IMG/VR virus record: IMGVR_UViG_3300000117_003318
Span: 3,257 to 23,475 of that record
Length of the DNA: 20,219 bases
Reading direction: 5' to 3' (one strand)
Source of the DNA: a virus
Shown here piece by piece: positions 1-16,039 of this stretch. Below the pieces are notes generated by a model. That model searched no databases. It was not told where the DNA came from and saw only the letters and a program-made list of their open reading frames with translations. Made by a program: the position numbers and the translations under genes. Numbering within the stretch: the stretch's first letter is position 1; each line of letters opens with the position of its first letter.

Positions 1-404
1 AAATTTGTTAAAGTTTCTGGATCAACAGCTTCATTATCTGCTTTATGTTTACTATCCATTTTGTCAAAAAACTTTTTCTTTTCGTCATCTGACATTTGAG
101 ATATTGATTTACCAGTTTTCTCTAACTCTTTTTTAAACTTAGCTTGATAGTCACCCATTTCAGCCTTCATATACTTTGCTTTCTCTTTTATCTCTGCTTG
201 TTCTTTTGCTGAGTCTTCCCACATAGTATTTTCAGTTACTACTTTAGTTACAGCTGCTTCTAATGAAGTTTCTCTTGTATCTAAGTATCTGTTTTTTGGT
301 GCTTCTAATTTAATTTCTTTTTTTTCAAAAGTGATGTTCTTCTCAAATGTTTTTACTGTTGCGTCTTCAATTGATCCATCTCTTGTATTTAAATATTTTG
401 TCAT
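1..404 (-). CDS. N-terminal part of a phage protein with YLxTR motifs (runs off the window)
   Basis: An open reading frame starts at ATG 404-402 and stays open to base 1, so only about the first 134 residues are visible. The start overlaps the upstream stop codon as TAATG, and an AAGGGAG ribosome site lies nine bases before it. The N-terminus reads MTKYLNTRDGSIEDAT, and a second copy of the motif, RYLDTRETSLEAAV, follows about 35 residues later. The rest is highly charged, Lys/Glu-rich and probably helical, with no signal peptide or membrane segment. Similar YL-x-T-(K/R)-x-x-S-(I/L)-E-x-A repeats occur, as far as I remember, in uncharacterised proteins of T4-like marine phages. I assign no function. 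It is the last visible member of the run that starts at the late promoter, so a virion or capsid-internal role is an inference from position. Confidence 0.75.
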   Translation of the reverse strand, partial: MTKYLNTRDGSIEDATVKTFEKNITFEKKEIKLEAPKNRYLDTRETSLEAAVTKVVTENTMWEDSAKEQAEIKEKAKYMKAEMGDYQAKFKKELEKTGKSISQMSDDEKKKFFDKMDSKHKADNEAVDPETLTN

Positions 405-2005
405 TACTTTTTACTCCCTTTAACTTGTTTTGCTAGGTCACTATCAGCACCACCCCATGTACCACTTGATTTAGTTACAAATGAATTTACACGAGCAAGA
501 GCCCATTGTACTTGTGTTGCACCAGGTCTGTGACCACCTTTCCAAGCTGCCATTCCTCTATCATATACTTTTTTAAGTACACCATAAGGCATGCCTGTTT
601 TTTCTGCTTTATTTTTTACGGCAGTTATTGTTTCTACTAATCTCTTAGCATTTTCAAACTTACCAGTTTTTTTGTAAACTTTGTTTCTAGCAATACCTGT
701 TACAAAAGGTATATCTGCTTTAACTAATTGTTTTAAAGATGTTAAATCTAATCTATCTAAATGTTTTGATAAAGCATTTGCCTTATCAGGCGATAGTGTT
801 TTACCTTTTAGATCAGCATATGATTTTTGTAATTTTTTAATCATATCGGATGTAAACTCAGATAATAAATTTATTTGTTCATCTGTAATTTCAGCATACT
901 CAACAACTGTAAAGTCGTCTGCTTTTGCTCTTACAATTTTATCAAAACCTTTTTCTCTTACTTTAACACTGTAATAAGCTCCAACTTGTGGTGATCCTAC
1001 TGCAACAATTTGGCCTAGTTTGCCGTTCATCATCACATGGCTGTTCACTTTATAGTGCGATTCACCTAATATACCTTTGACAGTTTTTAAAGGTAGTTTT
1101 AATCTTTTAGAAATTTCTTCAGCACTTTCGCCTTCTTTATTTGCTGTAAAGATGTCCTTCATTCTACCTTCTTCTAAATCTTCATCTTTTTTATCTTTTG
1201 GTTTCATGCCTTGTTTTTCTAATCTTTTTATATCAGCAACTGACATAGAACCAGTTTCTTTCATTCTTTGTTTAATACCTTCAAAGACTTTTCTAGCTCT
1301 TAATTTGAAATCTGCATTTTCGTTTTTAGATTCATTATATTTTCTTAGTTCAGCATCCACTGTAGGATTTTTAGATAAACCTTTTTCTAGTTTTTCTATT
1401 TCTGCTATAGCTTTAGTCATATTATCTTTAAACTTTTTAGCAATGTCTTTTGCTTTTGAAACTAAAGTCCAACCATATGTTGCTTCTTCTAATTCTTCTT
1501 TATAAACTTTTTTTCCTTGTTTATGAAGTTGTAAAGCTATTTTAGCATTCGGTGCATAAACGTGATCTTTTTTATCAGCTGTATTAGAATTATCTGTTGT
1601 TGCTTTACCATTTTTGATAATAAATCTATCGTTGTCGTAAGCGTCTTCTTCTTTTGCTATAATCTTCTTAGCAATTTCATGTCCCTTTTCGATTGTTTTC
1701 TTTTCTAAAGGTGGTTCATCATTCATAGATTTTTTCGCTTGTGCCATACCAATAGCATAAGCGTCATCTTTTTTCATCTCAGCTTTAATTTCTTCTATTT
1801 GTTCTTCTTCTCTAGCTGGTATTTTCTTTAAAGCAATCTCAGAAATAATGGCAATATCCATCTCACTAATTTTTTCTAAAGTTTCTACTTTTAATTTTTC
1901 CAACATAGAAGATATAGCTTTAATTTTATCTTCGTCTAATGTTTTACCTCTTAAATCTTCGTATTGAGTTTTTAGGTCTAATAAGTTTTGTTCTGAAAGT
2001 TGCAT
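404..2005 (-). CDS. Large helical phage protein with duplicated module, KOW/SH3-like segment and conserved C-terminal GHRPGATQ motif
   Basis: This 533-residue protein starts at ATG 2005, overlapping the upstream stop as TAATG and preceded by GGAG with a seven-base spacer. Residues about 7-61 and 388-442 are two copies of one helical module: GKTLDEDK matches GKTLSPDK, and MLEKLKVETL matches HLDRLDLTSL. Residues 293-313 (AEEISKRLKLPLKTVKGIL) look like a short helix-turn-helix. Residues about 317-370 resemble an SH3/KOW-type beta segment (NSHVMMNGKLGQIVAV). Residues 470-525 contain KVYDRGMAAWKGGHRPGATQ followed by ARVNSFVTKSSGTW, a motif I recall as an uncharacterised phage domain (DUF5824-type, from memory). 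Several (L/I)xE/(A,G,S) sites, such as LEE/A at 172-175 and LEE/G at 277-280, could be prohead-protease sites. Its function is unknown; a virion-internal role is inferred. Confidence 0.8.
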   Translation of the reverse strand: MQLSEQNLLDLKTQYEDLRGKTLDEDKIKAISSMLEKLKVETLEKISEMDIAIISEIALKKIPAREEEQIEEIKAEMKKDDAYAIGMAQAKKSMNDEPPLEKKTIEKGHEIAKKIIAKEEDAYDNDRFIIKNGKATTDNSNTADKKDHVYAPNAKIALQLHKQGKKVYKEELEEATYGWTLVSKAKDIAKKFKDNMTKAIAEIEKLEKGLSKNPTVDAELRKYNESKNENADFKLRARKVFEGIKQRMKETGSMSVADIKRLEKQGMKPKDKKDEDLEEGRMKDIFTANKEGESAEEISKRLKLPLKTVKGILGESHYKVNSHVMMNGKLGQIVAVGSPQVGAYYSVKVREKGFDKIVRAKADDFTVVEYAEITDEQINLLSEFTSDMIKKLQKSYADLKGKTLSPDKANALSKHLDRLDLTSLKQLVKADIPFVTGIARNKVYKKTGKFENAKRLVETITAVKNKAEKTGMPYGVLKKVYDRGMAAWKGGHRPGATQVQWALARVNSFVTKSSGTWGGADSDLAKQVKGSKK

Positions 2006-2838
2006 TATTTTTTCTCCATATCTTTTCTGACTAAATCGGATAATACATTTATACCGGCCATTTGAATTGATACCTTACTAGGAACATCCATTTTATCTAA
2101 CATATCTTTTATGCCTTTAGTAACATCAGCAGGTGTTTTCTTTGCCCATGTCTTTTTGATGTTAGCTATTTGATTCGGTGTAATTTTACCTAATAAACCA
2201 TAATCATTCATTTCTAATAATTCTAGTTCAGCTTCTGTTGTAAATTCTTCTTTTTTAACTTCAGCGCCTTTACCATACATATCTACATATTTTTGTGCTT
2301 CAGCAGGTGTATTATATTTGCCTAGTTCCATTTTAGTACCATCTTTTTTAGTGATAACTACTGTGTATGTTTCTTTGAAGTTTAAATTATGTTTAGTAAT
2401 AGTGATGTCCTTTAGACCATCTCTTTTTAATTGAGCAGCTTTATCATCTGCGTCTTTTTTAGTTTTATAAGCAACTGCAAATCTTTTTTTATTAGCTGGA
2501 TCTAAAAATCTAACAGCAAAGCCATCCATAAATTTTTCTTCAATAGTTTCTGCGTCTGTATGAGTTTCTTCCATTGCGTCATCTGGATTATATTCCATGT
2601 AATCTGCAACTGAATTGATGTAATCTTTTGCTTTAGTAATTTTAGATTGCACCCATGCTTCTAAAGGATTACCTTCATCTGATTTACCTTGTAACATAGA
2701 GGATAATTTTAAAGCCTTGTCTGAGATTGCTTCTAACTCACCTCTTGCCATAGATATTTCATGGTCTTTATCTTCTTCTTTTACTACAGACTGCTTTGTT
2801 TTGTTGTAAGCTTCTGTAAATATTTCTCTATATGACAT
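2005..2838 (-). CDS. Putative virion-associated protein with capsid-targeting-like N-terminus and C-terminal helical module
   Basis: This 277-residue protein has ATG at 2838, preceded by GAGG with a suitable spacer. The N-terminus, MSYREIFTEAYN, resembles the T4 capsid-targeting sequence, with possible cleavage after FTE. Residues about 30-82 include EAWVQSKITKAKDYINSV, a segment I recall as conserved in marine T4-like phages. Residues about 103-172 are a mixed alpha/beta part (FAVRFLDPANKKRFAVAY, then TYTVVITKKDG). Residues 222-274 are another copy of the helical module that is duplicated in the next gene; here MLDKMDVPSKVSIQMAGINV matches the MLEKL and HLDRL copies there. Because this copy ends the protein and the next protein begins with one, the two lie almost head to tail across the gene boundary. 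No enzyme motif is visible and the function is unknown. Confidence 0.8.
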   Translation of the reverse strand: MSYREIFTEAYNKTKQSVVKEEDKDHEISMARGELEAISDKALKLSSMLQGKSDEGNPLEAWVQSKITKAKDYINSVADYMEYNPDDAMEETHTDAETIEEKFMDGFAVRFLDPANKKRFAVAYKTKKDADDKAAQLKRDGLKDITITKHNLNFKETYTVVITKKDGTKMELGKYNTPAEAQKYVDMYGKGAEVKKEEFTTEAELELLEMNDYGLLGKITPNQIANIKKTWAKKTPADVTKGIKDMLDKMDVPSKVSIQMAGINVLSDLVRKDMEKK

Positions 2839-2839
2839 T

Positions 2840-3124
2840 TTATTCCTCTACTATTTCTACTTTTAATTTGTTTTTACCTTTATGTATTCTATGAAAAGTT
2901 CCCTTTGCTATAAAATACTTTACTCCATTTACTAATTCAATTGGTAATTGGTTGTCATATTGTAACTTCCAACCTTTACCATTCAACACTTTGATAGTTC
3001 TACTTTTTCTATCTCTGTGCCAAACTAACTCATCATTAATAACCTTTTCATCAAAGGTTCTTACAAACTTGTTTTCAGAAATTTTACTTTCTGAATATGG
3101 TTTACCAGAAGAAATTTCCACCAC
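2840..3124 (-). CDS. Small cupin-like phage protein
   Basis: This is a 94-residue protein with no ATG available. I chose the GTG at 3124 because AGGA lies seven bases upstream of it; a second GTG follows directly at 3121. The start overlaps the end of the upstream gene by 23 bases in another frame. The sequence contains LVWHRDRKSRTIKVLNGKGW, then DNQLPIEL and a closing segment AKGTFHRIHKG. This alternation of short beta strands, a WHRD segment and a late H-R before a Gly is the pattern of small single-domain cupins, and I recall similar uncharacterised proteins in marine phages. A cupin fold would allow metal or sugar binding, but the full set of metal ligands is not evident, so only the fold is suggested. 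The gene is embedded in the putative internal-protein run. Confidence 0.65.
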   Translation of the reverse strand: MVEISSGKPYSESKISENKFVRTFDEKVINDELVWHRDRKSRTIKVLNGKGWKLQYDNQLPIELVNGVKYFIAKGTFHRIHKGKNKLKVEIVEE

Positions 3125-3641
3125 CTGATAATCCTAAACTCTTTGCATATCTCGGCAAATTACATGCCCAATATGCCGCTTTTGTTCTATCTTTTTGCTG
3201 GTCACATCTGTGCCTAGCTGCAAAAGATTTTCTAGCTGCTGGATTTTTAAGTTTAACACTCAATCCAGTTGTATCGCCCCAGGTAACTTTCTTAATTTTG
3301 TCACCATCACGGACAAATACATAAAACTTTTTAGGTCCACCTCTTTTTGGCTTATTCAAAGGAGGATCTTTCTTATCTTCTTCTTGTATAGGACAATCTA
3401 GTGGTACTCTTTGACCATCAAGTTCTCCAAACTCACCTATGTTAGTTTCAAGTAACTTCTTATCCCACTCTGTTAAATCTACAAGAGCGCCTTCATTATA
3501 TAACTCTCTTGCTTCTCTAAACAGTTTGTAAAATTCTTCACTATGTACTCTATACACATTTTCTGCAAACGGTATATTGTTCTCTATGTGATAGTGAACA
3601 CTTTTACTTAATTTATCTTTAAAATCACTAAATTTTAACAT
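3102..3641 (-). CDS. Conserved phage protein ending in SGGGNFFW, with Cys/His C-terminal domain
   Basis: I take ATG 3641 (179 residues) rather than the upstream in-frame ATG 3689. It gives a short 14-base overlap with the previous gene and an N-terminus, MLKFSDFKDKLSK, that matches the capsid-targeting-like starts of the neighbours. Residues about 20-75 are helical and acidic. The C-terminal domain (about 100-179) runs through KKFYVFVRDGDKIKKVTWGD, NPAARKSFAARHRCDQ, AAYWACNLPRYAKSLG and ends SGGGNFFW. His144, Cys146 and Cys160 could form part of a metal site, but this is a guess. I remember near-identical C-terminal domains in many T4-like marine phages, always uncharacterised. The context suggests a virion-associated protein; no enzymatic motif is recognised. 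Confidence 0.8.
   Translation of the reverse strand: MLKFSDFKDKLSKSVHYHIENNIPFAENVYRVHSEEFYKLFREARELYNEGALVDLTEWDKKLLETNIGEFGELDGQRVPLDCPIQEEDKKDPPLNKPKRGGPKKFYVFVRDGDKIKKVTWGDTTGLSVKLKNPAARKSFAARHRCDQQKDRTKAAYWACNLPRYAKSLGLSGGGNFFW
3132..3135 (-). promoter_or_regulatory. Ribosome-binding site supporting a GTG start
   Basis: AGGA on the minus strand lies seven bases before GTG 3124-3122. It is the main reason for taking this non-ATG start for the cupin-like gene, which has no ATG near its N-terminus. Confidence 0.45.
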
Positions 3642-6555
3642 AATCTTTAAACGATAATAACATCTCTTTTTTAGATTTTTCAATCTCATTTAGATAGTTT
3701 TCACCGTATCTTTCCCTATATTTATGTATTGTTTCACCTGCAACAGCCCATTCTTCTATATCTTTTTTAGATATTTTTTTCTCATCATCTGCTTGACTTC
3801 CAACAGGCTTCGGTTTAGCGTCTGGTGTTTGTCCAGGCGTCATTTCTTTTGTATGATTAGCCCAATCAGCGCCAATTTCATACGCTTCAGGTACACAATT
3901 TGGTACCTTTTTGCCATTCTTATCTTTTAATCCCACTTGTTTATAACCTTTCCAACAAGCATCCGTCAAATCAACTACCAATTCACCAAACATCTTCTTA
4001 AACTTACTAGTATGTTTACTAGGTTTTGTTTTCGCTTCATCATCACCAGGAGCCTTCTTGTAAGGACCTTTGGTTGTATCTGTATTCTTAAAGTGTTTAG
4101 CTCTTTTTTCTTTATCTGATTTAGACAAATCTTTGTAATATTTTTTAGGCTGTGTGCCTTTTACTTTTTTGACATCTCTGTCTTGTGGTAGATTATCTGT
4201 GTGGCCGTCATTCTTTTTCTCTGATACAGCCTCAAATCCATAATCTACATTTAAATTAAATTCTCGCATAGCTACTTCTTTATCTGAAGTTTTAGGAATA
4301 CAATCCCAAATCCATGCTTTGTGTAAGTTGCCGTTTGTATCTTCTACGACAATATAGTTTGTACTTTTTCGTACTACCTTTCCTTCAATATTTTCTTTAA
4401 CATAATCTACTTTATCTCCTATATTAAAGATTATTTCTCTAATATATAAATCTCTTATTTGTTGTTGTTCAAATGCTTCTAAGTTTGCCATAGGTTTTGC
4501 TTTACCCATATAAACATAACTAGCTGCCAACTTCATACCTTTTCTAACTTGTTTCATTATGTCTTGAGCATTTACACCACTTGGTAAACCTCTTTTGAAA
4601 CTTGTAATATCATTTGATTTAGCAGCTGCTCTCATTTTACTTGCACTCATACCTGAAGCGCCTTCAGCATCCGGATCTCTTTCTCCTGCTGATATAACTT
4701 CTATCTTATCAAAGTTGTAGAATCCATGCCTGTTTGTTTTATTATTGTATTTCTTTAATATAGTTTCAAACTCTCTAACTCTATCTGAACCTGCAACCAT
4801 TTTTATTTCTTTAAAACCTTTTTTGTATAAGTCTGTTGCCAAATCTAATACCATATTGGTTTTATTAATTTCTATTTTAGAAGCATTTGCCGGAAACATC
4901 TTTTTCATTATCTTTAATTTTTCTTGTGGTGATAATGGATTTTTTTGTGGGTCTTCACTTCTACTTAAAAATATTCTGTAATCATTTGCTGATACACTTC
5001 TAACTTTCTTAATTAGTTTTTCGTGTCCTATTGTTGGTGGATTAAATCTACCAAAAGCAAATGCAACTGATTTAGCTTCTTGTATAACTTCTTCTTTAAC
5101 TTCTACTTTCTCTGACTTCTTATTTTTATTAATAAATTTTTGATAAGTTAAGTGTGCTTGTTTTAAATCTTTTTTCTTTTCAGGATCTTTTGCTCTTTCA
5201 CTTGCAACTTTAGCTCTTTGTGACATTGCTATTGCAGCCTGTATTTTATGAGCATGAGTTTTACCTGAGTTCTCTATTTTAGATACTGATTGTGTTGCCT
5301 TTTCTTTGTCAACAAAACCTAAACCATGTATTGTACCCTTAGGGTTTTCATCTGTGTATAGATCACTATGTTTGTCTGAACCTGCTTTTTGGCCAGGTTT
5401 TCGTGGTATTCTATTTGTATCTTCTCTTACCATAGATTGTAATTTTTTACTATCAATATCTTTAAATGTATCTGCTACAGCAGCTGCATACCAACCAATA
5501 TCGTGTCGTAATGGTTCAGGATATCTTTCTCTTTTCTTTCTATCAATTACATCTTGTAAAACTTTGGCTGCATATTCATATCTTTTTGATGTTGTTGCCA
5601 TTATTTTTAGTTTATCATAGATACCTTTTGCAAAGTTTTTAGCTGCCTTTTTAATATCATCTACTTCTTTATTTTCGTGCATTTCTAAATCATCTATTTC
5701 TTTATCTGTTACAATACCATCTTCTAATATCTTTTTACACTTCTTATAGAATTTTAGATAGTGATACTTCTCTAACATTTTGTAGATAACATTTTTAGGT
5801 AATCTATTCTTAACACCAAATTGTCTAATCTCATCTGGTGACATATCTTTATCAAATGCAGCTCTTCTATCTGCGTCAACACCATCACCTATTTTAATAA
5901 TTTGTTCTAAACTATCTTCTATTTCTTCTAGTTTATCTTTTACTAATTCTTGTAGATTTAATACATCATTAGGTGTTAAATCTTGCAATTCATTATAATC
6001 AATAATATCTCTTGCTAGTTCGCCTTTTACAACATCTATTTCTTGTACCTTTTTATTGAAATCTGAAACATACATCTTAGGATCAAATTCAAAATCATCT
6101 GGTCTTTTTACAAATTTATTTTTTTCAATGTCAAACACTGCGTCTGCTTTTTCATTTTGATCGTCATAAGTTTTTTGGTCTGTAATAAAGTAATAGTTAA
6201 TAGGGTGTTTAGAACCTGGTATTAATTTACCTTGAATATTTTTTGGATTACTAGCTGATAGATATTTTTGTGATAAGTTAACTCTTTCAACTTCTTGTTT
6301 ATCTTTTGGCACATCAAATAAAACATTGATGTCTAAGTCTGCGTCTTCTCTATATCTTTTTGTAAGAATAGAACCAATTAAAGATGTTTTTAAAATAGGG
6401 TATTCTTTAAACGCTTCAAGTTGATCGTTTATTTGTTTTAATACACTATCTTTAATTTTAGGATTATTAGTATCAGCTTCATCAAATACTTTAGGTGCAT
6501 AAGTTCTTCTTGGTATATCAATGATACTTTCTGTTATGTAATCTTTAAATTTCAT
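3628..6555 (-). CDS. Multidomain protein: pol-beta-like nucleotidyltransferase plus NMNAT/cytidylyltransferase-like domain
   Basis: This is a 975-residue protein. ATG 6555 overlaps the upstream stop (TAATG) and follows GGAG. The N-terminus MKFKDYITES resembles a capsid-targeting sequence with cleavage after ITE. Residues about 50-125 fit a pol-beta-type nucleotidyltransferase: Gly61-Ser62, then DADLDINVLF with Asp73 and Asp75. Residues about 200-480 are mostly helical. Residues about 495-680 are an HxGH-class nucleotidyltransferase (NMNAT-like): AFGRFNPPTIGHEKL holds the TIGH form, and GMSASKMR at 635-642 is the second signature. VIQE/A at 490-494 lies just before this domain. Residues 708-753 look SH3-like. 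Next come AKTKPSKHTSKFKKMFGE and CWKGYKQVGL with VPNCVP, motifs I recall from phage virion-type proteins. Substrates are unknown: adenylyl or nucleotidyl transfer is expected, NAD synthesis is only possible. Confidence 0.82.
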   Translation of the reverse strand: MKFKDYITESIIDIPRRTYAPKVFDEADTNNPKIKDSVLKQINDQLEAFKEYPILKTSLIGSILTKRYREDADLDINVLFDVPKDKQEVERVNLSQKYLSASNPKNIQGKLIPGSKHPINYYFITDQKTYDDQNEKADAVFDIEKNKFVKRPDDFEFDPKMYVSDFNKKVQEIDVVKGELARDIIDYNELQDLTPNDVLNLQELVKDKLEEIEDSLEQIIKIGDGVDADRRAAFDKDMSPDEIRQFGVKNRLPKNVIYKMLEKYHYLKFYKKCKKILEDGIVTDKEIDDLEMHENKEVDDIKKAAKNFAKGIYDKLKIMATTSKRYEYAAKVLQDVIDRKKRERYPEPLRHDIGWYAAAVADTFKDIDSKKLQSMVREDTNRIPRKPGQKAGSDKHSDLYTDENPKGTIHGLGFVDKEKATQSVSKIENSGKTHAHKIQAAIAMSQRAKVASERAKDPEKKKDLKQAHLTYQKFINKNKKSEKVEVKEEVIQEAKSVAFAFGRFNPPTIGHEKLIKKVRSVSANDYRIFLSRSEDPQKNPLSPQEKLKIMKKMFPANASKIEINKTNMVLDLATDLYKKGFKEIKMVAGSDRVREFETILKKYNNKTNRHGFYNFDKIEVISAGERDPDAEGASGMSASKMRAAAKSNDITSFKRGLPSGVNAQDIMKQVRKGMKLAASYVYMGKAKPMANLEAFEQQQIRDLYIREIIFNIGDKVDYVKENIEGKVVRKSTNYIVVEDTNGNLHKAWIWDCIPKTSDKEVAMREFNLNVDYGFEAVSEKKNDGHTDNLPQDRDVKKVKGTQPKKYYKDLSKSDKEKRAKHFKNTDTTKGPYKKAPGDDEAKTKPSKHTSKFKKMFGELVVDLTDACWKGYKQVGLKDKNGKKVPNCVPEAYEIGADWANHTKEMTPGQTPDAKPKPVGSQADDEKKISKKDIEEWAVAGETIHKYRERYGENYLNEIEKSKKEMLLSFKDYVKI

Positions 6556-6803
6556 TATTCTCCACCACCATTACCAGCACCGTTACCACCATTTCCATTA
6601 CCATTGCCATTTCCGTTACCATTGCCGTTACCGTTTTCTCCATTTGATGTATCGGTTGTTTGTGTGCCAGGTCCTCTCATACCATACGAATAAACTCTTG
6701 GTCCTTTTGGTACACAAACTTTTAACTTATCGTCAAATTTGTAACCCTCTGGACACTTCTTCTCTGCATATAACTCCATATATTTTTTAAATGACGTTAT
6801 CAT
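6555..6803 (-). CDS. Small protein with capsid-targeting-like N-terminus and Gly-Asn repeat tail
   Basis: This 82-residue protein has ATG 6803 overlapping the previous stop as ATGA. The N-terminus MITSFKKYMELYAEKK resembles the N-terminal tags of neighbouring proteins, with a possible YAE/K or earlier processing site. A central segment, CPEGYKFDDKLKVCVPKGP, contains two cysteines ten residues apart and resembles the CWKGY...VPNCVP motif of the next protein. From about residue 53 the chain becomes nearly pure Gly and Asn, with a run of GN dipeptides ending NGGGE. The tail must be disordered and flexible. No function is recognised; in this context it may be a small internal or decoration-type protein. 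Confidence 0.72.
   Translation of the reverse strand: MITSFKKYMELYAEKKCPEGYKFDDKLKVCVPKGPRVYSYGMRGPGTQTTDTSNGENGNGNGNGNGNGNGNGGNGAGNGGGE
6561..6635 (-). repeat. Six-base tandem repeat coding for (Gly-Asn)n
   Basis: The 3' part of the small gene consists of imperfect GGTAAC/GGCAAT-type hexamers that encode Gly-Asn dipeptides, seven or eight in a row and then degenerate. Synonymous variation between units shows it is not a very recent expansion. Such hexamer arrays can change length by slippage without frameshift. Confidence 0.85.
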
Positions 6804-8020
6804 ATTCTTCGTTTAGCCTCTAGTTCTTTTTTAATCCATTGTACTGCAATGTGATTGTCTGGTTTTTTATTTAACTGGCTTCTAATAAATCTACTACAAG
6901 TATTTAGGGTTTGTGTCACTAATTCCTGTTCACTTCTATTATTATCTACAATTAACATTTTATTAGGACTGAATATTCTTTGAAAAGAACCAATGTTTTG
7001 TTGAACGCCTTGCCAACTTTTTTTTGTAATATATTCAGGTACAGTTCTTTCTCTTTTTCTATTTCTTTCTAATGCAACCTCTAAACTCGTATTAACAAAT
7101 ACCATATAATTATCGTAACCTAAGTTCTTAAGCATACTGTGTTGTCTTTGTACCACTTGTAAATCTCTACCTGTGGCGTCTATAATTAAACCTAATCTGC
7201 CATTAACGTAGGTATCTAATTGTGTACTCGTAGTTGTTTTAGCTCTTTGTCTTATAATATTTCTAAAGTATTCTTCTTCATCTGGCATTTTGATTGAAAG
7301 GTTTGCTTTCTTTAATCCTAATTCAAATGCGTTATCTGAGTTTACTACTTTTAAACCTGTACCAGCAAATGCACTATTCGTAACAAATGTTTTACCTGAG
7401 CCTGGACCACCTGCTAAAAAGAAAGCTTTGAATATACCAGGATCATAAACACCCTCAGTAATAAAATTTCTCATTTCTGAGAATGATTTTATTTTTAATT
7501 TACTTATAATTTTTTTAGCAATATCTTCAGGTTCACCACCCTCGGCTTGCACCTCTATAAAACCTGGTTTTCTTCTATAATATTTTACAACAGGAAAAGT
7601 TTCTTTCTTGTATGTAGCAATTCTATTTTTGATAATATCAACTGTATCATCTGGTCTGCCTCTTGCTGTTAATCTTCTAATAACTTCTTCAGGACTTACA
7701 TTTAGATAAACAATTCTATCTATCTTTATGCCTTCAGCTTCTAAATCTTTTACTTGTTGCATATATCTAGGATAACCGTCAAATACAAAACCATTCTTTG
7801 CTTTCTTTACTGCGTCAAACATAAGTTTTTTTACAATATCATTAGGTGCAAAACCACCTTTATCTATAGCACTTAGTTTTTTTGCCATTTCTCCACCTTG
7901 TGCTTTTGCTTTTCTTAACAAGTCACCAGGATAGATATGATCTATACCAAATTCTTTTATTATAAATTTGGCATAAGTAGATTTGCCTGAACCTGGACCA
8001 CCTATCAAAATAATATTCAT
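6800..8020 (-). CDS. Adenylate kinase fused to a second P-loop kinase (zeta-toxin/polynucleotide-kinase-like)
   Basis: I start at ATG 8020, which overlaps the upstream stop as TAATG and follows AAAAGGA; this gives 406 residues. Residues 1-175 are an adenylate/nucleoside-monophosphate kinase: P-loop GGPGSGKST at 7-15, GDLLR at 32-36, FVFDGYPR at 78-85, and a very short LID with ARGRPDDT at 119-126. Residues 195-406 hold a second kinase: FFLAGGPGSGKTF with Walker A at 204-211, VVNSDN at 225-230, IDATGRD at 280-286, and an Arg/Lys-rich lid (ALERNRKRERTVP). The latter features fit zeta-toxin or polynucleotide-kinase-type enzymes, which act on nucleotides or RNA 5' ends; the substrate is unknown. 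Between the domains lies SFSEMRNFITEGVYDPG, which looks like the N-terminus of a once separate protein with its own capsid-targeting tag. Confidence 0.88.
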   Translation of the reverse strand: MNIILIGGPGSGKSTYAKFIIKEFGIDHIYPGDLLRKAKAQGGEMAKKLSAIDKGGFAPNDIVKKLMFDAVKKAKNGFVFDGYPRYMQQVKDLEAEGIKIDRIVYLNVSPEEVIRRLTARGRPDDTVDIIKNRIATYKKETFPVVKYYRRKPGFIEVQAEGGEPEDIAKKIISKLKIKSFSEMRNFITEGVYDPGIFKAFFLAGGPGSGKTFVTNSAFAGTGLKVVNSDNAFELGLKKANLSIKMPDEEEYFRNIIRQRAKTTTSTQLDTYVNGRLGLIIDATGRDLQVVQRQHSMLKNLGYDNYMVFVNTSLEVALERNRKRERTVPEYITKKSWQGVQQNIGSFQRIFSPNKMLIVDNNRSEQELVTQTLNTCSRFIRSQLNKKPDNHIAVQWIKKELEAKRRI

Positions 8021-9237
8021 TATCCTTTTACCCAATCTTTTGCAATATTAAAGTTTGCTCTACTAAATTCTAATCTATCTACAAGTTTAACTGCACCTCT
8101 AACTCTATCTACAGCAACATAACCCTCAGGATTTGTTACTCTAAAACCATCAGGTGTTCTAATAAAATGACCAATTGATTGTATCTGATTTAATTTTCTA
8201 ATTAAAAAGCTCTTTGCTGTTTGTAAACTCATATGACTTGCAATAGAAAAATATAAACCTTGTTGGTTTCTATCAATGAAAGTTAAACCTTGTTCCATTA
8301 TTTTTCTATATTTCATTTTCGTATCTTCTCTTTTCACAGCGTCTATTTCTTGTTGTAAAATATTTTCGTAATAATCTCTAAACATTCTAACTAATTCTTT
8401 TACTTTTGATTGTTCACTATTGTTTCTTACATAATAGTTAAAGAAAGTTTTTAATCTAAAACCTACAGATAGTGGATCAGAAATGTCAAACTGGTTTAAA
8501 ACTACAGCTGCTTTACTTAATGATCCTTCAGCCATTCTTATAATACTATCAAACTGACTCATTTCTCCACGATTAAATGTTGCTGAACCAGATGTATCTT
8601 TATAAGTTGCGTCTGTTACAAATACAGAACCTAATTTTGGTATTCTTGTAAGTGAACCAAAACTAGCAGATAGACTGCTCATTTTAGAACCTGAATATGA
8701 TGTATGAAATACAATACCTAATCTAGCTCTTGCAATTCTTTTACCTATTGCACTATCTTTATCAACTGCATATGTGATTGTATTTGGTGTAAATGTTAAG
8801 TATTCTCTTTCATCTATACTTTGAGATTTTACATCACCTTTTGTGAATAGTAAATCACCTTGTAGAATACCTTTGATACCTATTTTTGAAAGTTCTCTTA
8901 AACATACAGTAAGTTTATTAGCTAACTCACCACTGTGGTTTTTCCTAATATCACCTGTAGAATAATTTATCTTTGGAGTTTTATTGAAGATTGATTTAGT
9001 ACCAACAAAAAATTTACCGTTCTCTGGATTAATACCACAGAATACAGCAGGAGCTCCGTCCCACTTAACAGTTACATTAAGTCTACCACCTACATTACCT
9101 GTAAGCATTTTCTTTATTGATTTTAGAAACATTACGGCGTCTTTACCGCCTTTTGAACCTCTATCTATGATAGAATCTTCTAAGTGTTCTAAATGGGTAT
9201 TCTGCCCCTTTGTGATAAATCCTTTAAAACTAAACAT
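8020..9237 (-). CDS. Covalent nucleotidyltransferase of the ligase superfamily (RNA-ligase-like, DUF6267-type)
   Basis: This 405-residue protein has ATG 9237, three bases after GAGAGG. It shows the ordered motifs of ATP-dependent ligases and capping enzymes. Motif I is VKWDGAPAVF, with Lys58 as the likely AMP-accepting lysine (KxDG). A motif III-like segment reads ILQGDLLF, motif IV is PEGYVAVD with Glu371, and motif V is GAVKLVDR with Lys384. The order and spacing fit a single compact ligase domain with a large helical insertion. In marine T4-like phages I recall this family only as uncharacterised (DUF6267, from memory). It should form an enzyme-AMP intermediate; RNA ligation is the best guess but is not demonstrated. 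The N-terminus MFSFKGFITKGQ resembles the neighbours' capsid-targeting tags but has Lys in place of the cleavage Glu. It is the first gene after the late promoter. Confidence 0.8.
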   Translation of the reverse strand: MFSFKGFITKGQNTHLEHLEDSIIDRGSKGGKDAVMFLKSIKKMLTGNVGGRLNVTVKWDGAPAVFCGINPENGKFFVGTKSIFNKTPKINYSTGDIRKNHSGELANKLTVCLRELSKIGIKGILQGDLLFTKGDVKSQSIDEREYLTFTPNTITYAVDKDSAIGKRIARARLGIVFHTSYSGSKMSSLSASFGSLTRIPKLGSVFVTDATYKDTSGSATFNRGEMSQFDSIIRMAEGSLSKAAVVLNQFDISDPLSVGFRLKTFFNYYVRNNSEQSKVKELVRMFRDYYENILQQEIDAVKREDTKMKYRKIMEQGLTFIDRNQQGLYFSIASHMSLQTAKSFLIRKLNQIQSIGHFIRTPDGFRVTNPEGYVAVDRVRGAVKLVDRLEFSRANFNIAKDWVKG

Positions 9238-9298: not shown

Positions 9299-9306
9299 TA
9301 TTTATA
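9299..9306 (-). promoter_or_regulatory. T4-type late promoter box TATAAATA
   Basis: The minus strand of the 72-base intergenic gap reads CTTATAAATAG, an exact match to the T4 late promoter consensus recognised by gp55 with gp33/gp45. It lies about 62 bases before the ATG of the ligase-like gene, which gives a short leader. It marks a change from the replication genes upstream to the putative virion-internal genes downstream. I found no other perfect copy in an intergenic position. Confidence 0.72.
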
Positions 9307-9309
9307 AGA

Positions 9310-10389
9310 CTAAAGATACTTAAAATCACCCATTAATCTAGTTGGATAACCATCTCCACCTTGTGTATCTCTTATATTTAATTTAAGAAGATATTTTCCA
9401 GTGATTATTTCCATGTCAATTCTTTTACCGTTACCACCCATACCACCATAATATACATTTAGTGACGTAGGTTTAGCAGCTTGACGCATATACGACTCGT
9501 CAATTTTAGTTGATTTGACAGTGCCACCTAATCTGTGTATTACATGATAACCATGCCCTATACCAGATTGTAATAATTTTTCTAATTGGTTTTTTTGTAA
9601 ACTACTCATACTAGGCCATACATTTTTACTATAACCTTTTTTCATTTTACCATTAAATATTTCGCAAAAATCATCTTTATCAACACCAAACATTTTTAGT
9701 AATCTATTACCATTTGGATTTTTGATTACACCAGATTTAATTTCTTGTGTAGTTAATATTGTTTTTACACCAACATTAAAGAAAGTTGTAGTACCTGACA
9801 TTTTTAAACTTAGATATAGCACAGGTTTACCACCTTTTTTATCTCTTAATGTAATATCAGTAACTATAGGACCTACATTATTACCTTGTTGTCCACTTGC
9901 TTTCATTACAATGTCTGGTCCAAATATTAGTGGTCTTCTAACATTTAATTCACCAACCGGTTCTACTTCTAAATTTTTATGTTTTGCTAGTTTATACATC
10001 TTATATAAACCCTCAACAGATGGCTCTAAACTTCTATCTTTTAATTCTTCACCAGCATGATAATCTTTTATGGCGTCTGTGTATTGTCTTTCAAACAAGT
10101 TACCCTTATTATTGACACCTCTGCCACCCTTTGATCCATTACCAAATTTAATTTTAATAGCAGATAACTTTGATTGATTTTTTATCTGTGTGATCTCTGT
10201 TAAAGCCTGCAAATCTCTGGATATGTTGACCGTTGTTATCTTATTAGGGTCAATATTAATAGGAGTATCTACCATCTTATACTTTGTAGTTAAGAAAGTG
10301 AATAGTCTTAATATCTCTTGTATCTTTGTTTTATCAGTTTTAAGAGCTCTTACCTCTTTTGCTGACTTTGGAAATACTGTATATGCCAT
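9310..10389 (-). CDS. Phage protein with PD-(D/E)XK-like signature residues, possible nuclease
   Basis: The frame is open from a TTG at 10428 directly after the in-frame TAG of the upstream gene. I prefer ATG 10389 (359 residues), preceded by a weak AGG, because the TTG has no ribosome site. Residues about 97-100 contain KGNLFE. Residues 174-199 read PIVTDITL, then GGKPVLYLSLKMSGTTTFF. An early Glu in a KGxxFE segment, an Asp starting a strand (D178) and S-L-K (K196) on the next strand is the layout of PD-(D/E)XK nucleases, with Ser in place of the usual acid. The C-terminal half includes YYGGMGGNGKR and a Gly-rich end. I recall homologues in cyanophages without a function. Nuclease activity is therefore an inference at low confidence. 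It is the last gene before the late promoter. Confidence 0.72.
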   Translation of the reverse strand: MAYTVFPKSAKEVRALKTDKTKIQEILRLFTFLTTKYKMVDTPINIDPNKITTVNISRDLQALTEITQIKNQSKLSAIKIKFGNGSKGGRGVNNKGNLFERQYTDAIKDYHAGEELKDRSLEPSVEGLYKMYKLAKHKNLEVEPVGELNVRRPLIFGPDIVMKASGQQGNNVGPIVTDITLRDKKGGKPVLYLSLKMSGTTTFFNVGVKTILTTQEIKSGVIKNPNGNRLLKMFGVDKDDFCEIFNGKMKKGYSKNVWPSMSSLQKNQLEKLLQSGIGHGYHVIHRLGGTVKSTKIDESYMRQAAKPTSLNVYYGGMGGNGKRIDMEIITGKYLLKLNIRDTQGGDGYPTRLMGDFKYL

Positions 10390-10428
10390 AATTGTTTTAC
10401 CTATATCATATTTAGGTGTATTTGGCAA

Positions 10429-15508: not shown

Positions 15509-16039
15509 TCACACTTCATTACCCCAATAGTCCCAACCTTTTCTGGTTTTCTTTCTGGCAAATAGTTCAATATATGGCCCTTCCACAAGTCTTTCTATAT
15601 CTTCATGTAAAAGTGGTTTTTCACTATGTCTTCCTCTAGGAGCTATTACTAATTGTTTTACATCTTTATTGATTCGTTTTGGTTTACCTTTCGTTGCAAG
15701 TAAACACATTTCAGGATTGCCTCTGGTCCAATATCCTAAACCTGTAAACATTCCTAGTCCGTGTTTATTTTGTTTTGCCCATGTAAACCCTACTGTTTTA
15801 TATTTAAATCCCCATGCGTCTATAACTTTAAGAGCTTGATCTAACATAGGGTCACACACCCACATCAATAATACACAATTTTCTTTTGCAATATTATTTA
15901 CAGGAAGATTACATATATCTTTTAATGTCATACAACTATAGTGTTGTTCAGGACTTCTATCTTTACCCTTGTTAGAATATGTCCTAAACGACCAAGGAGG
16001 GTCAGCATAGATTACGCTATATTTTTTACGAATATCCAT
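15509..16039 (-). CDS. MT-A70 family adenine-N6 methyltransferase
   Basis: This 176-residue protein has the catalytic motif DPPW at 13-16 (VIYADPPWSFRTY), which places it in the MT-A70 class of S-adenosylmethionine-dependent N6-adenine methylases. The C-terminal part also fits: TVGFTWAKQNKHG, TRGNPEMCLLATKGKPKR, SEKPLLHEDIERLV, then IELFARKKTRKGWDYWG. There is no separate target-recognition domain, as in other small phage members. It most likely methylates phage DNA, giving protection from host restriction or marking replicated DNA; the target site cannot be read from sequence. The start overlaps the small membrane gene by 28 bases and has no ribosome site of its own, so coupling is likely. 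Confidence 0.92.
   Translation of the reverse strand: MDIRKKYSVIYADPPWSFRTYSNKGKDRSPEQHYSCMTLKDICNLPVNNIAKENCVLLMWVCDPMLDQALKVIDAWGFKYKTVGFTWAKQNKHGLGMFTGLGYWTRGNPEMCLLATKGKPKRINKDVKQLVIAPRGRHSEKPLLHEDIERLVEGPYIELFARKKTRKGWDYWGNEV

Follow-up and report, generated by a model that had tools for sequence, protein, structure and literature searches.

In phage T4, the internal proteins IPI, IPII and IPIII carry a common N-terminal signal of about 10 residues, the capsid targeting sequence (CTS), with an aromatic or hydrophobic residue at positions 4 and 7–8 and a glutamate at position 10 that is followed by Ala, Ser or Gly. Its occurrence in the internal proteins of T-even phages is established, and mutagenesis of the T4 version, MKTYQEFIAE, assigned residues 4 and 7 mainly to targeting and residues 8 and 10 to processing, according to the accessible text of a review of T4 (PMC9026906), which also raises the possibility that the CTS is general in T4-like phages and, in that text, does not list proteins of the type described here. 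A related precedent is T4 Alt, an ADP-ribosyltransferase that, according to the literature, is packaged as an enzyme in the prohead, undergoes trimming by gp21 and is injected along with the DNA. Here we analyse a 20,219-nucleotide (20.2-kb) stretch of DNA from a marine T4-like phage, hereafter the window, which corresponds to positions 3,257 to 23,475 of the 23.5-kb IMG/VR record IMGVR_UViG_3300000117_003318 and in which several proteins encoded by a block of neighbouring genes at 404–9237 begin with a CTS-like tag. We consider it very probable that this shared N-terminus is a T4-type CTS, by which enzymes are packed into the capsid for injection.

The gene order on the minus strand of the window (DNA polymerase, UvsX, gp41 helicase, and then a mostly unnamed block) resembles that of a Kyanoviridae replication module, and an equivalent block, located after gp41 and ending at the gp61 primase, is found in HTVC008M, Melnitz, P-SSM4, Syn1, S-SM1 and S-SZBM1. 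The block opens with an intergenic gap that holds TATAAATA (9299..9306, minus strand), described in the literature as the T4 late promoter, 62 nt upstream of the start codon of a DUF6267 gene. In relatives, this motif stands upstream of 95 of the 104 DUF6267 genes and never on the opposite strand. The window as a whole has just 3 copies of the core, ATAAATA, where shuffling predicts 17. Judging from the promoter motif, the block is predicted to be expressed late. As in the T4 internal proteins, one signal sits on unrelated proteins and several of the tagged genes adjoin each other. T4 cargo, however, consists of small, basic anti-restriction proteins, whereas that predicted for the window is larger, enzymatic and often multi-domain, and the block differs further in its Kyanoviridae-like setting, in having a late promoter of its own within a replication module, and in carrying tag-like sites also inside fused proteins.

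All five N-termini on which the original prediction was built are present where it placed them, and the resemblance of the tag to the T4 CTS extends to the residues that matter in T4 mutagenesis, which are also the conserved tag positions in the relatives. The observation itself stood only in part, as the tag is strong in two proteins and intermediate, weak, non-significant or absent in the others. N-termini were scored with a weight matrix from whose training the family of the scored protein was left out, with p-values from shuffling, and we write tag sites as x|y, where | marks the predicted cleavage point. The two strong cases are a 975-residue protein (3628..6555, as all block features on the minus strand), with the tag MKFKDYITE|S (6529..6555; p = 1.4e-4), and a 277-residue protein (2005..2838), with the tag MSYREIFTE|A (2812..2838; p = 9e-5), in both of which the arrangement of an aromatic residue around position 4, hydrophobic residues at 7–8 and a glutamate at 10 appears one residue earlier (p ~1e-4); in many relatives, it is reproduced exactly. 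The 405-residue DUF6267 protein (8020..9237; PF19782, E = 6e-120) is intermediate, with a tag-like N-terminus, MFSFKGFITKG (9208..9237 for MFSFKGFITK; p = 1.7e-3), that keeps the targeting positions and has a lysine in place of the cleavage glutamate. The arrangement is likewise incomplete in an 82-residue protein (6555..6803), whose tag, MITSFKKYMELYAE, is weak (p = 0.02), and in the 195-residue phrog_7595 protein (3102..3641 from an inner ATG at 3641, the frame being open also from an ATG at 3689), whose start, MLKFSDFKDKL, is not significant by itself (p = 0.06). Better tags are found in orthologues of these weaker members, as in MKTFKEFENIDEAC for the 195-residue family, MINFKKFMNLHAEKK for the 82-residue family and MKSFKQYINEAS or MKTFKQYISEAK for DUF6267, and clear ones in the relatives' adenylate kinases (MKSFKQYFFE|A), 95-residue DUF6321 proteins (MKSFKEFINE|A), nucleotidyltransferases (MRFKDFINE|S) and DUF6267 proteins (MKSFKQYINE|A). 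By the weight matrix, no tag is present in the window on the 533-residue protein (404..2005), which combines DUF5824 with a duplicated helical repeat, on the 94-residue protein (2840..3124), on the phrog_8438 protein or on the N-terminus of the adenylate kinase, so that part of the 404–9237 block is without a recognisable tag; the 533-residue protein is tagged in several relatives (MSYRQIFAEAY, MTSRYRQTMSEAM). The 82-residue protein, in which a small Cys motif (CPEGYK...CVPK) is followed by a long Gly-Asn repeat that forms the C-terminal end, resembles ORF15 of S-CREM2, a virion protein by mass spectrometry (MS).

Among the relatives, the tag is confined to the late block. A strict pattern, built from the T4 CTS and recovering T4 IPII and IPIII (MKTYQEFIAE|A), was run on 156 related contigs together with the window; downstream of the start of DUF6267, it matches 88 of 674 unique N-termini, and upstream none of 442. 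By family, the corresponding counts are 6 of 27 and 0 of 29 (p = 0.009), which is the safer figure given the non-independence of homologous N-termini. A degenerate DNA pattern for MK[ST]FK[EQ][FY][IL]xE[AG], applied to IMG/VR, returned 84 open reading frame (ORF) starts, whose 74 complete ORFs represent 40 unrelated families, including DUF6267, RNA ligase (PF09414), glucosaminidase and lytic transglycosylase as well as a protein related to a PHROG that is annotated as virion structural protein. Together with the occurrence of the tag on about nine families in the syntenic block, this bears out the earlier statement that the domains behind the tag are unrelated. That the likeness arises by chance or inheritance, from functionless amphipathic N-terminal helices or domain-shuffled leaders, would fit the weak members of the window (p = 0.02–0.06) and the few unlikely proteins that the degenerate pattern matches, and is nevertheless extremely improbable in view of counts far above the shuffle expectation (only ~0.6 strict matches within the tagged families), of the 40 families, and of a tighter tag-like motif that is anchored at the initiator Met in 85 of 93 occurrences and at ORF starts in 7 of the remaining 8 (92 of 93 in total). 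Against it stand also the retention of the site at fusion junctions, described below, and the conservation of the motif in close homologues: in 36 orthologues of the nucleotidyltransferase family to which the 975-residue protein belongs, the cleavage glutamate (Glu9) is invariant and the aromatic residue nearly so. As individual examples from other viral contigs, the same tag precedes an RNA ligase (PF09414; L264:4344-5264), a glucosaminidase (L279:6253-7065) and a lytic transglycosylase (L301:3578-3997).

A protease suited to such a site and a capsid protein bearing a matching one are both encoded by the relatives. The prohead protease gp21 is encoded by the complete Kyanoviridae relatives and by 7 of the 18 larger tag-bearing contigs, and gp23 carries FLxE|A-type sites in several relatives (SGSFLAE|APTN in S-SCSM1 and SAFLSE|AAPTN in Melnitz), comparable to GSFLTE|AE in T4 gp23. 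We also observed small tagged proteins in two contigs (L281:1016-1351 and L299) that continue with APTNSTGSGVDNY or APTNQDGSH, like the start of mature gp23 (APTN...) just behind the gp23 cleavage site. In the Vibrio phage KVP40 (NC_005083), two adjacent ORFs beside a gp23/gp24-like gene (37733-39178 and 39187-39834) have the CTS-like starts MLGNFDSFLSEN and MKQFCNFLAEV.

Published MS places tagged orthologues in virions. The orthologue of the 975-residue protein, a cytidylyltransferase, was detected in virions of the cyanophages S-SM1, S-SZBM1, S-CREM2 and S-SCSM1, as given in the accessible parts of the respective reports, and its tag is canonical in all four (MKKFSAFLNE|A, MRFRQFIIE|A, MKNFSSFLTE|A and MKSFLQFLKE|A, respectively). 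This cyanophage virion cytidylyltransferase/NMNAT (T4-GC190) is the nearest described counterpart, with an orthologous nucleotidylyltransferase domain, mostly the same genomic place and the same tag. The window version differs in an additional N-terminal Pol-beta-type nucleotidyltransferase, and the published descriptions, as far as accessible, give the virion location of T4-GC190 and not its tag. In S-SCSM1, 7 of the 10 genes of the block encode virion proteins, compared to 41 of 272 elsewhere (p = 2e-4). The strict pattern, which had been fixed before the whole S-CREM2 genome was viewed, matched 5 ORFs of that phage, 4 of them MS-detected; the form F..F[LIMF].E, searched in the first 35 residues and picked after the strict-match N-termini were seen, marks 6 ORFs, 5 of them detected (a SAM hydrolase, a Cas9-like nuclease, an APH/ChoK-like kinase, ORF136 and the cytidylyltransferase), versus 20 of 185 other non-structural ORFs (p = 1.4e-4). 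An overall rank test of S-CREM2 with the pelagiphage-trained matrix gave no significant result (p = 0.35), which is explained by the predominance of untagged structural proteins in the virion and by the GTG start of the kinase, which fell outside the scan. The untagged DUF6267 protein of S-SZBM1, a neighbour in the block, is absent from the accessible part of the MS list of that phage. Within S-CREM2, ORF12-15 (OR473000, 7704-13331, minus strand) form a cluster of virion-detected proteins (Cas9-like nuclease, small protein, APH/ChoK-like kinase and CPEGYK protein) with three tags, LRFASFMAE|A, MKDLHSFLTE|Q and VKRFDAFLTE|E, and a fourth start, MNFSEFNES, that resembles the 82-residue protein of the window.

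The late promoter in the window, the protease and gp23 site of the relatives and the tagged orthologues in virions all favour the capsid-targeting function proposed from the window alone. They also bear on the alternative that the tag serves for docking to some other, capsid-unrelated phage complex, such as the adjacent replisome. The block sits within the replication module, flanked by gp41 and gp61, which would suit such a role, as would the weakly similar N-terminus of UvsX; yet the replication genes upstream do not carry the strict tag (0/442), the block owns a late promoter, tagged proteins occur in virions and the E|A/S/G junction matches the gp21 and gp23 sites, which makes docking very improbable. 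The N-terminus of UvsX itself scores fairly high with the weight matrix, which almost certainly reflects a false positive; as a replication protein outside the late block, UvsX was rejected as a tagged protein.

Several observations weigh against a targeting CTS. The UvsX case shows that the pattern can occur without the function. In the window phage, gp21 cannot be demonstrated because the 23.5-kb record is a fragment without head genes, and HTVC008M, an isolated pelagiphage relative, has degenerate tags only and no strict match. For none of the tagged proteins is an N-terminal peptide or a cleavage product reported in the accessible parts of the virion studies, and the authors of the S-CREM2 study state that non-structural virion proteins may be co-purified. 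Finally, many MS-detected block proteins have no canonical tag (S-SCSM1 gp90, gp92, gp93, gp95 and gp97), and S-SCSM1 gp30, with the perfect tag MKTFKQFMSE|S, is not labelled a virion protein.

The predicted cargo of the window is mostly of nucleotide- or RNA-type chemistry and comprises an adenylate kinase, a zeta-like kinase, a Pol-beta-type nucleotidyltransferase joined to an NMNAT-like enzyme, and DUF6267. In the 975-residue protein, residues 494–678 fit the NMNAT/PPAT family by profile (PF01467, phrog_395/3041) and by structure (Z ~13–14 to PPAT and NMNAT structures) and are accompanied by the Pol-beta-type nucleotidyltransferase domain and a DUF5824-like region, while residues 1–16 are predicted with very low structural confidence, as expected of a loose leader. 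DUF6267 has an invariant KWDG (KWDGAP) motif, of the KxDG form of the DNA/RNA ligase superfamily, and its model (pLDDT 68) shows weak structural similarity to two ligases, RNA editing ligase 1 at Z 5.7 and a DNA ligase at Z 5.0. Nothing significant linked it to ligases by Foldseek, by profile search or in a comparison with the tagged RNA ligase, so that, with its suggestive motif, it stands as a possible rather than a clear RNA or DNA ligase. The block yielded no homologue of Alt; its enzymes, in contrast to that ADP-ribosyltransferase, are kinases and nucleotidyltransferases. This cargo also helps to weigh the reading in which the targeting and cleavage signal is real and the proteins serve head assembly, as core or scaffold proteins or processing intermediates, rather than being delivered as active enzymes. 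Several block proteins are indeed long, helical, charged and scaffold-like (the 533-residue protein, S-SCSM1 gp92), and T4 gp22 and gp24 likewise start with xxE|A or xxE|S sites; most of the recognisable cargo, however, is enzymatic (kinases, nucleotidyltransferases, RNA ligase, SAM hydrolase, Cas9-like nuclease), and injection is described for the T4 internal proteins that bear the CTS (the accessible text of PMC9026906; PMC12373910), so that we regard an assembly role as unlikely.

Tag-like sites also occur within fusions. The window encodes a fusion of an adenylate kinase with a zeta-like kinase (6800..8020, ~406 residues from the ATG at 8020; PF00406, PF13671 and PF06414), which, in addition to lacking an N-terminal tag, contains between its kinase domains the junction KSFSEMRNFITE|GVYDPG (7454..7489). 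The original prediction overlooked this site. It recurs in no fewer than 12 relatives, with REFREYLNE|GVYDPG and KEMKEFIKE|GVYDPG as variants of the MRNFITE|GVYDPG of the window; the unfused kinases of relatives start with MKSFEQILSE|GLYDPG. In fusions of the nucleotidyltransferase, FKE|SIIDIPRR is similarly kept at the junction, often together with a tag-like start at the new N-terminus. The retention of a tag at fusion junctions suggests that the protease may also separate the domains, and, if cleaved, junction tags would represent a new use of the prohead protease. The density of internal (I/L)xE[AGS] sites was not used as evidence for polyproteins or protected cargo, since it varies as much among control genes and the families compared are homologous and thus not independent. 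A broader proposal would see in the Kyanoviridae CTS a portable delivery code, by which unrelated proteins in their dozens, with many enzymes acting in nucleotide and RNA chemistry or in host control, are loaded into the head via a cleavable tag, with internal tags letting the prohead protease split fused cargo into several injected enzymes; we put it forward tentatively, as slightly easier to doubt than to accept.

Some further features were noted around these genes. The untagged phrog_8438 protein of the window (9310-10428) contains a possible PD-(D/E)xK-like stretch, VTDITLRDKKGGKPVLYLSLK, and its positional counterparts start with MQGFKTFLSEAK in Melnitz and MLSFTGYSNLSEA in HTVC008M. A probable MT-A70-type adenine methyltransferase with a YADPPW motif, recognised by reading only, lies in the replication module (15509-16039). 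Elsewhere, S-SCSM1 gp30 (44215-44535) and an S-SZBM1 ORF (122311-122640) form a small, perfectly tagged family, MK[ST]FK.F.SE|SVNISGDFNGNL; gp30 is close to the terminase and may have been missed in the virion data for its small size.

Under the capsid-targeting reading, the block would be transcribed late in infection from its own late promoter, and the aromatic and hydrophobic residues of the tag (about positions 3–4 and 6–8) would dock the proteins into the prohead core. A gp21-type protease would then cut after the glutamate of (I/L)xE|(A/S/G), and the freed cargo would remain in the DNA-filled head until ejected into the next cell, where its role is probably early counter-defence or takeover. 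Such a set recalls the polyvalent proteins of phages and conjugative elements (Iyer et al. 2017), multidomain effectors, zeta-like kinases among them, that are thought to be packaged and injected; those are recognised by their domain content, whereas what unites the set in the window is a short signal at the N-terminus that includes a predicted gp21-type cleavage site. In the literature that we searched, which excluded subscription journals, we found neither the CTS applied to Kyanoviridae enzymes nor junction tags. On this reading, a mechanism already known from T4 would be extended to a marine family of large size. Studies of cyanophage virions have repeatedly listed enzymes (cytidylyltransferase/NMNAT, kinases, SAM hydrolase, Cas9-like nuclease) without a mechanism of entry, and the S-CREM2 authors were unable to exclude contamination; a T4-type tag suggests such a mechanism, together with a simple sequence test. 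If this is true, reading the tag would predict injected effectors straight from marine virus sequence: candidate injected effectors of abundant marine phages could be listed by sequence alone, and their early functions would become directly testable.

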